The notes under the pieces were generated by a model that had not been told where the DNA came from, searched no databases, and worked only from the letters and a program-made list of their open reading frames with translations. This document shows, in pieces, positions 8,691-12,787 of a DNA stretch of 64,000 bases (its first letter is position 1; every line of letters starts with the position of its first letter). The position numbers were made by a program, and so were the translations under genes. The stretch lies in NCBI RefSeq assembly GCF_009749465.1, contig NZ_WBIS01000006.1:1-64000 (forward strand), written 5' to 3'. The DNA is from Agromyces terreus. GTDB lineage: Bacteria > Actinomycetota > Actinomycetes > Actinomycetales > Microbacteriaceae.

Positions 8691-9841
8691 CAGCTCGCGT
8701 ACGCGCTGTTCTCATGCACGTAGTCGTGCGTGAGGTCGTTGGTGAGGATGGTGGCGGATGCCTCGCCCGCGTGCAGCTCGACGAGCACGTGCGTGGCGCG
8801 GGGCGTCAGGTCGACCTCGTCGCGGGCGGCGTCGGGTCGGCCGGCGTGGCACACGCGCACCCCGTTCATCGACACGTCGACGAGGTAGGGGTCGAAGGGC
8901 GCCTGCGTCGTGCCGATCGCCGCGAGCACGCGGCCCCAGTTGGGATCGTTGCCGAAGATCGCCGCCTTGAAGAGGTTGTTGCGGGCGACCGAACGGCCCA
9001 CCTCGACCGCGTCGTCTTCGGTGACGGCACCGCGCACCTCGATGGCGATGTCGTGGCTCGCTCCCTCGGCGTCGGCCTGGAGCTGCTCGGCGAGCGAGCG
9101 GCAGGCCGCGGTGAGCGCCGCGCGGAACGCCGCGGCGTCGGGCACGATTCCGGAGGCGCCCGAAGCGAGCAGGGTCACCTGGTCGTTCGTCGACATGCAG
9201 CCGTCGGAGTCGAGCCGGTCGAAGGTGACTCGGGTCGCCTCGCGCAGCGCCGCATCGAGCTCGCCGCTCGGCAGGTCGGCGTCGGTGGTGAGCACGACGA
9301 GCATGGTCGCGAGCCCGGGCGCGAGCATGCCCGCCCCCTTCGCCATGCCGCCGATGCGCCAGCCGTCGCCGTCGACGACGACCGTCTTCGGCTTCGTGTC
9401 GGTCGTCATGATCGCCCGTGCGGCGTCGCCGCCGCCGTCGGCCGAGAGCCGGGCAGCGGCGGAGAGCACGCCCTCTTCGAGCACCTCGCCGTCGAGCTGG
9501 TCGCCGATGAGGCCGGTCGAGCAGACGAGCACGTCGCCGGCGGCGATGCCCAGAGCGGATGCCGCGGCCTCGGCCGTGCGATGCGTGACCTGGAACCCCT
9601 CGGGGCCCGTGAAGCAGTTCGCGCCGCCCGAGTTGAGGACGATCGCCGACACGACGCCGTCGAGGATCACCTGCTGCGACCAGAGGATCGGGTTCGCCTT
9701 GGCGCGGTTGGAGGTGAACACCGCCGCCGCGGCAGCGGACGGACCGCGGTTGACGACGACGGCGAGGTCGAGCGCGCCCGACCGCTTGATGCCGGCGGCG
9801 ATTCCGGCGGCGTCGAATCCGGCGGGAGAGGTGACGGTCAC
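8690..9841 (-). CDS. argJ: Glutamate N-acetyltransferase / amino-acid acetyltransferase
   Basis: 383 aa. Transfers acetyl between acetylornithine and glutamate, recycling the acetyl group; it self-cleaves to two chains. The cleavage motif MLAPGLATM is visible, with the nucleophile at Thr179, and the family's TND motif ([12 protein letters not shown]) follows. No argA or argE gene is seen nearby, consistent with the recycling (ArgJ) pathway. The start ATG overlaps the argC stop at 9838-9841. Confidence 0.96.
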
Positions 9842-10881
9842 GGTGCGACTCCATTCAGCGGAAGGCCGGTCGATTCGGCGAGGCCGAGCGCGATGTTCGC
9901 CGACTGGATCGCGGCGCCCGCGGTGCCCTTGACGAGGTTGTCGACGGCGGCGACGACGACGACGCGACCGGCGGCCTCGTCGATCGCGAGCCCGATGAGC
10001 GCCGTGTTCGCGCCCTGCACGTCGGCGGTGCGCGGGAACTGCCCCTCGGGCAGGAGCTGCACGAACAGCTCGCCGGCGTAGGCGTCCTCCCAGGCGGCCC
10101 GCACCGTCGCGGCATCCGTGCCGGGGACGATGCGCGCCGCCGACGTGGCCAGGATGCCGCGGCTCATCGGCACCAGCACGGGCGTGAACGAGATCGTGGG
10201 GGCCGCGGCGCCGGCCCAGCGCAGCGCCTGCTGGATCTCGGGGATGTGCCGATGCGTGCCCCCGACGGCGTAGGGATTGGCCGATCCGAGGATCTCGGAC
10301 GCGAGCAGGTTCGTGCGCAGGCTCTTGCCGGCGCCCGAGGGGCCGACCGCGAGCACGGAGACCAGGTCGACGTCTTCGATGACGCCCGCGCGGATGCCGG
10401 GGGCCAGCGAGAGCGCGACCGTCGAGGCGTTGCAGCCGGGAGCGGCGATGCGGCGAGCGCCGGTGAGCCGCTCGCGCTGGGTACCGGAGAGGCGGGGAAG
10501 CTCCGGCACTCCGTACGCCCAGGCGCCGTGGTGCTCGCCGCCGTAGAACGAGGCCCAGGCTTCGGAGGACTCGAGGCGGTGGTCGGCGCCGCAGTCGATG
10601 ACGAGCGTGTCGGCGGACAGCTCGGCGGCCACGGCGCCCGAGGTACCGTGCGGCAGGGCGAGGAAGACGAGGTCGTGGCCCGCGAGGGTCTCGGCGTTCG
10701 TCTCGCGGAGCGTGAGGTGCGTGTAGGAACGCAGATGCGGCTGCACGGCGACGAGGGACTGGCCGGCGTTCGAATGCGCGGTGACCGTGCGCACCTCGAA
10801 CTCGGGATGATCGGCGAGGAGGCGGAGGATCTCTCCTCCGGCATAGCCGGACGCGCCGGAGACGGCGACGGAGTACGTCAT
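9838..10881 (-). CDS. argC: N-acetyl-gamma-glutamyl-phosphate reductase
   Basis: 347 aa from the ATG at 10881. NADPH-dependent reduction of acetylglutamyl phosphate, third step of arginine synthesis. The Rossmann GASGYAGGE is at residues 9-16 and the catalytic cysteine is C150 in [15 protein letters not shown] ends 5 bases before this ATG; the GTG three codons upstream would overlap the ribosome site and is less likely. First structural gene of the operon, preceded by an Arg-rich leader frame and a hairpin. Confidence 0.96.
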
Positions 10882-10906
10882 GGAAACCACCTTATGGTCT
10901 GAACGA

Positions 10907-10934
10907 GCGGGGCGATGTTCCGGCGACGCCCCGC
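10907..10934 (-). promoter_or_regulatory. Hairpin between leader peptide and argC (candidate attenuator)
   Basis: GCGGGGCG (10907-10914) and CGCCCCGC (10927-10934) form an 8-bp GC stem with a 12-base loop. It lies after the stop of the Arg-rich leader frame and before the argC ribosome site. An alternative overlapping repeat, AGGCCT-GA-GGCCT, ends at the leader stop codon, so mutually exclusive folds are conceivable. No long U-tract follows. Attenuation is an inference. Confidence 0.4.
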
Positions 10935-10942
10935 GTCAGGCC

Positions 10943-11050
10943 TCAGGCCTTCGCAGGGGTCGCCGACATTCGGCGCTCGCCACGACGTCGGTTGCGCACG
11001 ACCGAGACACGCGTGACGCGTGCGGCGGCGACGAACCCGATGGCGGACAT
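10943..11050 (-). CDS. Arg-rich leader peptide upstream of argC (putative)
   Basis: A 35-codon frame starting at the ATG at 11050. It encodes 8 arginines, seven of them after residue 12, including the cluster R-N-R-R-R-G-E-R-R at residues 19-27. The codons used there are CGC, CGA and CGT, and CGA/CGT are less favoured in this genome. A -10-like TATGGT lies 6 bases upstream of the ATG (11057-11062) with TTTGCG at 11082-11087, so the message may be leaderless. The frame stops 61 bases before argC. The arrangement looks like an amino-acid leader peptide controlling argCJBDFH; nothing here proves translation. Confidence 0.5.
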   Translation of the reverse strand: MSAIGFVAAARVTRVSVVRNRRRGERRMSATPAKA

Positions 11051-11113
11051 GCGTCGACCATATCGGCGGCGCGGCGCCGATCGCAAACCGGGGGCCGCCC
11101 GACCGACCCGACC

Positions 11114-12787
11114 TCAGCGCGGGGCGACCACCGAGTCCGCCGGCGCCGCGGGCCGCGGCACCGAGTCGAGGAGCAGCCGGGTGTACGGATGCCGCGGCGC
11201 GTCGAGGAGTTCGGCCGTGGCACCCCGCTCGACGACCTCGCCGCGTCGCATGACGAGCGTCTGCTCGCACACCCGCCGCACGACCGCGAGATCGTGGCTG
11301 ATGAAGAGCAGCGTCAGCCCGCGTTCGCGCCGGAGCCCGGCGACGAGGTCGAGCACCTGCGCCTGCACCGAGACGTCGAGCGCGCTCGTCGCCTCGTCCA
11401 TGACGAGCACCTCGGGCTCGATCGCGAGGGCACGTGCGATCGCCACGCGCTGTCGCTGTCCGCCCGACAGGGTGCGCGGTCGGGCGGCGGCGTGCTCCGC
11501 CGTGAGGCCGACGCGCTCGAGCAGTTCGACCGCCCGGTTGCGCGCCGCTGCGCGCGGCATCCGGGTGTGCAGTCGCAGGGCCTCCTCGATCGACCGGCCG
11601 GCCGTGACGCGGGGGTCGAGCGAGAGGTACGGGTCCTGGAACACCATCTGCACGCTGCGGGCGCGCTCGAGCCGCTCGGCTCGGCCGCGTGGGCCCGCCG
11701 CGCGGTCGCGCCCGCCGATCGACAGGGTGCCGCCGTCGCTCGGCTCGAGGCCGACGATCATGCGGGCGAGCGTCGACTTGCCGGATCCGGACTCCCCCAC
11801 CACGGCGAGCGCGCCGCCGCGCTCCAGCTCGAAGGAGGCGTCGGCGACCGCGATGACGGGCGGCCTCCCCCGCGGACGGTAGGTCTTCGACAGGCCCGTC
11901 ACCGACAGTGCGGGGGCGGGTGCGGCCGACGGCGCATCCGACGATCCGGGGCCCGAGCCGGCCGGAGCGGAGGCGGTGGGCGCTTCGGGAGGCTCGGCGG
12001 AGGCAGCCGGGCCGGCGGCGAGCGTCGGCGTCGCCGCGACCAGGCGGCGGGTGTAGTCGGCCTCGGGGGCGACGAGCACGCGCATCGCGGACCCCTCCTC
12101 CTCGACGCGGCCGGCGCGCATCACCACGAGGCGGTCGCAGACGGATGCCGCGAGTGCGAGGTCGTGCGTGATGAGCAGCATGCCCATGCCCCGCCCCTCT
12201 CGCTGCTCGACGAGCACGCGCATGATCTCGGCCTGCGTCGTGACATCCAACGCCGTCGTCGGCTCGTCGCACACGAGCAGCTTCGGCGCACTCGTGAGCG
12301 CGCCCGCGATCATGACCCGCTGCAGCATGCCGCCGGAGAACTCGTGCGGGTACTGGGTCAGATGATCGGCCGGGCGAGGCAGCCGCACGGCGGCGAGCAG
12401 GTCGAGCGCGCGCGCCTCGGCGTCGGCGGCCGGAAGCCCGTCGCAGAGCCGGAGCGTCTCGGTCAGGTGGTCGCCGAGGGTGCGCATCGGGTTGATGCCG
12501 GCGCGCGGATCCTGGAAGATCATGGCCGCCGAGTGCCGGCGCAGGGCGCGCACCTCGCGCGCGGCCGCGCCGAGCACCTCGTGCCCGTCGAGCATCACGC
12601 TGCCGTCGAGCCGCGAACCGGTCGGCGTGAGGCCGAGCACCGCGCGAGCGGTCAGCGACTTGCCCGAGCCGGACTCGCCGACGAGGCCGACGGTCTCGCC
12701 CTCGGCGACCCCGAGCGAGATGCCGTGCAGCAGCCTGCGGCCGTCGGCGAGGTCGATTGTCAGGTTGCGGATGTCGAGCAGGCTCAT
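11114..12787 (-). CDS. Peptide/nickel-type ABC transporter, fused double ATPase (DppD-DppF)
   Basis: 557 aa with two complete ABC ATPase halves. Half one has Walker A GESGSGKS at 37-44 and the signature SGGMLQR at about 151-157; half two has Walker A at 331-338 and the signature SGGQRQR. They are joined by an Ala/Pro/Ser-rich linker at about residues 258-292. In many systems these are two proteins, so this is a fusion. It energises uptake through the two permeases just upstream. The ATG at 12787 overlaps the permease stop (ATGA). The substrate is unknown. Confidence 0.9.
   Translation of the reverse strand: MSLLDIRNLTIDLADGRRLLHGISLGVAEGETVGLVGESGSGKSLTARAVLGLTPTGSRLDGSVMLDGHEVLGAAAREVRALRRHSAAMIFQDPRAGINPMRTLGDHLTETLRLCDGLPAADAEARALDLLAAVRLPRPADHLTQYPHEFSGGMLQRVMIAGALTSAPKLLVCDEPTTALDVTTQAEIMRVLVEQREGRGMGMLLITHDLALAASVCDRLVVMRAGRVEEEGSAMRVLVAPEADYTRRLVAATPTLAAGPAASAEPPEAPTASAPAGSGPGSSDAPSAAPAPALSVTGLSKTYRPRGRPPVIAVADASFELERGGALAVVGESGSGKSTLARMIVGLEPSDGGTLSIGGRDRAAGPRGRAERLERARSVQMVFQDPYLSLDPRVTAGRSIEEALRLHTRMPRAAARNRAVELLERVGLTAEHAAARPRTLSGGQRQRVAIARALAIEPEVLVMDEATSALDVSVQAQVLDLVAGLRRERGLTLLFISHDLAVVRRVCEQTLVMRRGEVVERGATAELLDAPRHPYTRLLLDSVPRPAAPADSVVAPR

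Follow-up and report, generated by a model that had tools for sequence, protein, structure and literature searches.

The arginine biosynthesis operon argCJBDFH of Agromyces terreus is preceded by a short, arginine-rich open reading frame (ORF) that is conserved in its genus and recurs in other genera of the Microbacteriaceae. We consider it likely that this ORF encodes a leader peptide, probably on a leaderless mRNA, that it ties expression of argCJBDFH to the speed at which Arg codons are read, and that it replaces the lost repressor ArgR. This judgement covers the core claim, parts of which are shared by two of the rival explanations discussed below, an opposite switch and translational control. 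Control by charged tRNA is deduced from codon choice and geometry; translation of the leader, stalling on it and a response to arginine are proposed steps. A preliminary description of the DNA had already suggested ribosome-mediated control of the arg operon, and the comparison of genomes supports it: the Arg codons are kept in phase, one of them is CGA in nearly all loci, the C-terminal domain of ArgR is missing, and an ARG-box-like site before argC is gone.

Results

Leader ORF and putative promoters

The window, that is, the whole stretch of 64,000 nucleotides that was analyzed, carries argC on its reverse strand (9838..10881). It is the first gene of argCJBDFH, whose open frames continue to about 4093; the gene names are presumed from the protein families and follow the preliminary description. 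A frame of 35 codons had been described 61 bases before argC, and it is indeed present at 11050..10943 of the same strand (MSAIGFVAAARVTRVSVVRNRRRGERRMSATPAKA; 35 codons plus TGA, 10943..11050), with a gap of 61 nt between its stop codon and the argC ATG at 10881. It contains eight Arg codons, and the count of seven from residue 14 on holds in the translated frame. A gene resembling an ABC transporter lies upstream of the leader region.

As had been noted, a TATGGT element stands 6 bases before the leader ATG (11062-11057). This -10-like hexamer (11057..11062, reverse strand) has leaderless geometry and is separated by an 18-nt spacer from the -35-like hexamer TTGCGA (11081..11086, reverse strand), the two forming the putative promoter P1. 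Neither hexamer is close to the E. coli consensus, and a strict sigma-70 scan of 10850-11200 returned no promoter site. A TTG is found within the -35 window in 58/58 genus loci and 24/53 other family loci, the counts in a control window being 0 and 2. The gap between TANNNT and the start codon measures 6 or 7 nt in 110 of the 111 detected leaders, with 5-9 nt allowed. The leader ORF is probably leaderless, since with the spacing of TTG...TANNNT a transcript would begin at the leader ATG; in its promoter geometry it resembles the leaderless short ORFs of the polycysteine type.

At the start of argC itself, the sequence TAAGGT (10889..10894, reverse strand) provides both an AAGG core resembling a Shine-Dalgarno (SD) sequence and a hexamer of the -10 type, at 7 nt from the ATG. 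A TANNNT element 6-7 nt before argC occurs in 39/53 family loci with the leader and in 38/55 without it. Hence, argC may have a leaderless second promoter of its own, though a -35 TTG ahead of this hexamer was detected in 0/97 and 1/40 loci; because the hexamer also stands in those 39 leader-bearing loci, this promoter may bypass the leader. Cores of the type AAGG, GAGG, AGGA or GGAG precede argC in 52/53 leader-bearing loci of the family versus 25/55 loci without the leader. This fits a need for an SD sequence in leader-bearing loci, where the mRNA would start upstream; however, the mean SD pairing energy is alike with and without the leader (p 0.79), which counts against that reading.

Conservation of the leader

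The leader was searched for with a detector demanding an ORF of 18-45 codons that starts with ATG or GTG, a TANNNT element ending 5-9 nt before the start, at least 5 Arg codons making up at least 17% of the frame, and a stop within 210 nt of argC; these thresholds were fixed after the sequences of the genus and of the family had been seen. Genomes with argC numbered 60/60 in the genus (Agromyces) and 113/120 in the family (Microbacteriaceae). An Arg-rich ORF of the leaderless type stands before argC in 58/60 genus genomes and in 53/108 other family loci, the latter being the 113 argC-bearing genomes minus 2 of the genus and minus G171, G150 and G068. As the same detector accepted 16/3360 dinucleotide shuffles, the leader ORF is more than chance. 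Applied to anchors in the window, it accepted 4/2544, possibly including the leader ORF itself.

The leader-bearing family loci are spread over 39/79 genera other than Agromyces, and in 28 of the 29 genera represented by two genomes both agree on presence or absence of the leader. The preliminary description had held that a lack of conservation of the frame or of its Arg codons would speak against its idea; what we found is conservation across the genus and those 39 genera. In a further set of 80 contigs, which overlaps the main genomes and is thus not independent, 62 were positive, among them 30/31 of Agromyces, 15/15 of Microbacterium and 6/6 of Leifsonia, with 0/5 of Leucobacter, 0/5 of Cryobacterium and 0/2 of Aurantimicrobium. 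The leader frame is therefore real and strongly conserved as judged by sequence comparison.

The two genus loci missed by the detector are L041, where a contig end cuts the leader, and L060, which is without it; L097 has a similar ORF marginally under the Arg threshold. As the sole uncut genus locus lacking the leader, L060 (genome G017) has two direct copies of CTTCCACCTCGAACACGGGAGTCGGAG before argC, together with the inverted repeat GGTGTTGTTCCCAC/GTGGGAACAACACC. An Arg-rich leaderless ORF was found at 0/30 loci each of argG and carA in the genus (31 genomes searched per gene), and outside the family an Arg leader was found at 0/43 argC loci. The argG gene lies elsewhere in the genome (G000:C20), and in the genus it looks leaderless too, with TAGGCT 6-7 nt before the ATG in 29/30 loci (L216-L245).

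Apparent loss of ArgR and of its site

ArgR, a DNA-binding repressor, mediates arginine feedback. The preliminary description had reported that ArgR and argG are absent from the cluster. This observation extends further for ArgR, whose C-terminal domain is missing from the entire genome; argG is present outside the cluster. The ArgR C-domain (PF02863) was found in 0/60 genus genomes and 0/120 family genomes, the same search being positive in 8/14 control genomes, including C. glutamicum. Among 99 genomes drawn from the order, the domain was present in 91/92 genomes of other families and in 0/7 of Microbacteriaceae. Microbacteriaceae thus seem, from these searches, to have lost the usual arginine repressor.

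The site appears to have gone as well. The pattern TGTATnGT or a close form, which was composed after seeing the sequences and which we call ARG-box-like by presumption, lies within 40 nt of the argC start in 37/43 loci outside the family and in 0/172 within it. The outside set comprises the 43 of 86 argC-bearing genomes that were examined upstream, a few of them with an uncertain argC start. In the last 40 nt before argC of these other families (L173-L215), forms of TGTATAGTNATGC overlap the -10 element and often abut the ATG. This arrangement suggests that a leaderless argC mRNA is under repression by ArgR there. Within the family, 40/79 other genera are without a detected leader although ArgR is absent from all family genomes searched.

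Position, phase and choice of the Arg codons

Distances of codons were counted to the downstream RNA arm GGCGNC. In the window, three consecutive Arg codons, CGA CGT CGT (10982..10990, reverse strand), lie 26, 23 and 20 nt from this 5' arm and are the proposed control codons, and the last two Arg codons, CGC CGA (10970..10975, reverse strand), lie 11 and 8 nt before it. The latter pair may also base-pair with TCGGCG at 10966-10961 (pairing 1:2). Of the 58 genus loci, 58, 57 and 57 have Arg at 26, 23 and 20 nt, and 56 and 58 have it at 11 and 8 nt. Outside the genus the Arg codons scatter across 17-32 nt, with Arg again at 8 nt (53/53) and often at 11 nt (33/53). Since arms were picked on condition of an Arg codon 8 or 5 nt before them, Arg at 8 nt is partly so by construction; its identity is not, and this codon is CGA in 110/111 loci. 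GGCG[AGT]C motifs near the stop fall in the same reading frame 114 times and in another frame 6 times. End-product codons thus stand at a fixed distance before arm 2, as in a classical attenuator.

CGA and CGT had been described as uncommon in this DNA, and they account for 14 and 17 of 170 Arg codons in seven neighboring genes with approximate bounds. In the leaders, CGC, CGT and CGA together form the majority of Arg codons; CGA makes up 22-23%, CGT 21-24% and CGG 6-14%, and AGA or AGG occurs in none of 920; the respective figures for CGA, CGT and CGG in argC (n=1008) are 4%, 7.5% and 26%. The tRNA-Arg genes of the genome have the anticodons ACG, CCG, CCT and TCT, with no TCG, in a scan of 24/30 loci plus 14 stretches; the 6 loci and 2 tRNAs left out overlap scanned ones. 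The inosine of tRNA-Arg ACG is expected to read CGA. By this decoding rule, and given that a TCG tRNA is lacking, a single tRNA would be expected to serve CGA, CGC and CGT alike.

The peptide is kept less strictly. It drifts outside Arg, and the Arg cluster moves one to three codons between genera. The leader stop overlaps the arm in 53/111 loci and lies 13-22 nt past the arm start in 58/111, so that the C-terminus of the leader peptide is not conserved. The identity of CGA and its distance to the RNA arm are better kept than the peptide sequence.

RNA structure between leader and argC

The whole leader of the window folds with -88.2 kcal/mol (z -3.68). Its 5' arm, or arm 2 (GGCGACCCCTGCG; 10952..10964, reverse strand), lies within the end of the ORF and is predicted to pair, with one bulged base, with a 3' arm, or arm 3 (GCGGGGCGTCGCC; 10922..10934, reverse strand; z -4.0 in the window). 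Across 111 loci, stem 2:3 has a mean z of -2.65, with 89% below -1.5, and arm 3 ends 36-46 nt before argC in 55/61 loci. Pair changes were analyzed in 61 loci, that is, the 53 of the family plus 8 of the 58 of the genus, and the outer 2:3 pairs co-vary, for instance from G-C to C-G or from C-G to T-A. Paired cells amounted to 194/244 versus 160.5 +- 4.6 with permuted partners, in a register fitted to maximize pairing. A fairer test, in which downstream regions were exchanged between genomes and re-fitted, found the own partner better in 37/53 (p 0.009) and gives weaker support for the stem than the permutation count. An antiterminator-like stem 2:3 is thus kept with pair changes, as in classical attenuators, less strongly so in the swap test. 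A point against the proposed mechanism is that the probability of stem 2:3 predicted for the stalled state exceeds 0.5 in 58% of the 52 loci from family members other than Agromyces.

The preliminary description had drawn attention to a hairpin at 10907-10934 after the leader stop. It does fold as described (-18.6 kcal/mol, z -2.26); it is not, however, the conserved element. This hairpin pairs arm 3 (10934-10927) with an alternative partner, arm 4 (CGCCCCGC; 10907..10914, reverse strand), which is lineage-specific. A general 3:4 terminator was not found, the mean z of this pairing being -0.2 over 111 loci; values below -2 occur in 8/111, the window (-1.5) not being among them. By this comparison, the conserved stem is the one formed by the leader end (10964-10952) and 10934-10922, with the 3:4 hairpin as a lineage-specific alternative. 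A terminator scan of 10850-11200 found no intrinsic terminator with a T-tract. Between the 3' arm and the SD sequence lies a C-rich, G-poor stretch (10895..10921, reverse strand; 11 C, 6 G), and the excess of C over G in this interval is +0.28 in leader-bearing family loci, +0.02 in those without the leader and +0.01 in other families.

Some structures are confined to certain lineages. L067, L069, L070 and L101 have a hairpin directly before the Arg cluster, 26-68 nt before arm 2 (z -2.5 to -3.4); over the first half of all leaders, hairpin formation is not general (mean z only -0.63 in 110 loci). In Agromyces, the loci L040, L044, L049, L051 and L052 carry an extra copy of a unit of about 47 bp that runs from arm 3 to TAAGGT or TTCAGGT, L044 having two extra copies, and in four of these loci the leader stop is 127-131 nt from argC versus 82 in close relatives. 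A search against Rfam recognized neither a T-box nor another known element; it gave three matches, all far below the gathering score, the match on the leader strand reaching 17.9 bits versus 46. A degenerate DNA pattern of CGA, arm and arm was uninformative over 21 genomes, with many matches, most of them away from argC.

The end of pheT as a possible leader

In many family loci the end of pheT, which encodes a phenylalanyl-tRNA synthetase subunit, lies upstream of argC. Its stop is within 150 nt of argC in 35/55 loci without the leader and in 0/53 with it. No separate leader was detected in the genera g5, g32 and g36 (L133, L147, L144, L168, L096 and L102). Here, the pheT tails have Arg in the leader phase at 23 nt (L144 and L168 also at 20) and at 8 nt, the codon at 8 nt is CGA, and arm 2 is found in the following codons with arm 3 before argC. 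Strong arm pairing before argC is predicted for L133, L144, L168 and L102 (z -2.6 to -4.6), and weak pairing for L096 and L147 (z -0.6 and -0.4); in L102, the best pairing is three bases off the leader register. From these features, the pheT end seems to do the job of the leader in the three genera. Moreover, within pheT of g5 and g32 an in-frame GTG follows a TATGCT at a distance of 6 nt, with the -35 TTG absent, an arrangement that could give a leaderless reading of 55 codons of the pheT tail. Among 101 loci it occurs only in L133, L144 and L168, and additionally in L147, outside that list.

An origin of the leader by in-place decay of pheT is not supported as such, because many leader-bearing loci retain a pheT end, at 190-430 nt ahead of argC. 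Some leader ends resemble the PheT end GERFGATLRD, namely GERVKATL and GERLRATL in Lacisediminihabitans and GQRLQATLPV in Frigoribacterium (L368, L392 and L377), a resemblance for which common origin or convergence is possible. We advance only tentatively the scenario in which early Microbacteriaceae lost ArgR and its site and a leaderless Arg-codon attenuator arose, with the pheT end serving as leader in three genera.

Discussion

The data presented here make it very likely, in our view, that the Arg-codon leader controls argC, and probable that the position of the ribosome acts through stem 2:3. In the mechanism that we propose, a ribosome on the leader of arginine-replete cells would reach the stop codon, which is located on arm 2 or 13-22 nt past the arm start. 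There it would cover arm 2, stem 2:3 would not form, and transcription would end before argC. When arginine is scarce, the ribosome would wait at the RRR codons and leave arm 2 free, so that 2:3 would form and RNA polymerase would read on into argC; in the window, arm 3 could instead pair with 10914-10907. In trpL, the control codons lie about 18 nt before arm 2, a distance that the leader Arg codons, at 20-26 nt, resemble. The sense of the switch, anti-termination with a stop under plentiful arginine and read-through under scarcity, is taken by analogy from trp and from speF orf34 (PMC6386406, in the excerpts available), and we give it even odds.

Because no intrinsic terminator was found, the last step may be termination by Rho, atypical termination or translation. 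Rho sites are C-rich and G-poor. The C-rich, G-poor stretch before argC, which has no T-tract, would fit Rho, a candidate that we regard as plausible though not the expected one. The same character of Rho sites is stated in the excerpts of PMC6386406.

Two alternatives retain part of this reading and differ in how the ribosome would act. A ribosome paused at the invariant CGA would overlap part of arm 2, a geometry that agrees equally with the opposite sense. In such an opposite switch, stem 2:3 would be inhibitory, as a pause or an atypical terminator, and a ribosome waiting at CGA would cover arm 2 and let the polymerase pass. Two observations speak for this option: no codon is better conserved than the CGA at 8 nt (110/111), from which the edge of the ribosome would reach into arm 2, and stem 2:3 is general, unlike 3:4. 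We nonetheless deem it unlikely, because ribosomes would meet the upstream RRR first, where arm 2 stays free, and because a ribosome at the stop would also cover the arm, so that the fed and starved states would differ little. Somewhat less likely still is a translational control in which the ribosome-binding site of argC is masked by the leader RNA and becomes accessible when a ribosome stalls on the leader, in spite of the AGG-type SD core in 52/53 leader-bearing loci and of the closest known architecture having been described as translation attenuation (Canestrari 2020, through passages that cite it). The predicted cost of opening the SD sequence is 4.04 kcal/mol in the stalled state versus 3.95 with the ribosome at the stop, and that of opening the interval from SD to AUG 6.34 versus 5.94 kcal/mol (110 loci); moreover, no conserved pairing to the SD sequence was found in these folds. 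As opening is predicted to be no cheaper in the stalled state, the folds lend no support to SD sequestration relieved by stalling, and transcription is favored over translation as the level of control.

In fungi, the arginine attenuator peptide is a nascent-peptide sensor of arginine, and the Arg-rich peptide could itself be an arrest peptide that binds free arginine. In favor of this, the genus keeps its RRR and RR clusters close to the C-terminus; however, the non-Arg sequence drifts, and CGA and its distance to the arm are better kept than the peptide, which makes this option very improbable. We attach equally little weight to the idea that the frame occurs by chance where a promoter and an RNA hairpin are conserved, or that it encodes a small basic protein with an independent function. 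Arg codons are common at high G+C, and TAAGGT before argC could alone be the promoter; yet only 16/3360 shuffles were accepted by the detector, the phase is conserved, the C-terminus is not (stop on the arm in 53/111, 13-22 nt past its start in 58), and neither argG nor carA has such a leader. Control of argCJBDFH through the reading of Arg codons by the leader ribosome is thus the reading that we retain.

If this is right, a repressor has been replaced by ribosome-based sensing across much of the Microbacteriaceae, with the ArgR-bearing sister families as a natural comparison. A short leaderless ORF could then carry the control of a whole pathway, in a well-bounded case whose codon CGA, tRNA and short RNA stem are testable one by one.

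Among the matches listed in our literature search, which covered few subscription journals, no bacterial leader peptide of arginine biosynthesis was recognized. The excerpts of a comparative survey of 2005 report no conserved RNA structures before the arginine operons of Actinobacteria, and in the part shown its genome list includes one recognized member of the Microbacteriaceae, Leifsonia xyli (PMC1262725). In the other families of the order, ArgR and the ARG box at argC would exert feedback on the same operon, with the difference that ArgR is a DNA-binding repressor, not found in Microbacteriaceae.

Canestrari et al. 2020 are said to have described mycobacterial polycysteine leaderless short ORFs as attenuators, in which a stalled ribosome opens the ribosome-binding site. 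As far as the citing passages go, the arginine leader shares with them a leaderless short ORF, a run of end-product codons, a location upstream of biosynthetic genes and a host in the Actinomycetota; it differs in the amino acid, in the conserved stem after the Arg codons and in that no relief of a hidden ribosome-binding site is predicted. In speF orf34 of Salmonella, according to the excerpts of PMC6386406, a ribosome at the stop prevents expression and one at the Arg codons permits it. Consecutive Arg codons and a downstream hairpin are common to both systems, and Rho takes part in speF. On the other hand, speF orf34 serves ornithine decarboxylase, not arginine biosynthesis, acts through mRNA decay, translation and Rho, and is an SD-led ORF in a 516-nt leader of gamma-proteobacteria; its core HIRRT..HIMM, as given in those excerpts, is absent from the leader peptides inspected by eye. 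The rbfL leader of Staphylococcus aureus likewise uses rare Arg codons in an upstream ORF to sense arginine limitation; according to the part of PMC13009471 available, it has eight residues, and pausing makes the ribosome-binding site for a biofilm regulator inaccessible, so that the sign is opposite.

The trp, his and ilv operons have the classical attenuators. As in these, and as in ilvB1 of Mycobacterium tuberculosis in the excerpts of PMC13236596, end-product codons precede arm 2, and mutually exclusive 2:3 and 3:4 pairings are possible in the window; unlike in these, no intrinsic terminator was found, 3:4 is not general and the start is leaderless. We class the arginine leader with the amino-acid leader peptides because it has the cognate codons, their distances and the stem, though not the intrinsic terminator. 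Judged by its sequence, it would be a leaderless member of this group that serves arginine biosynthesis.
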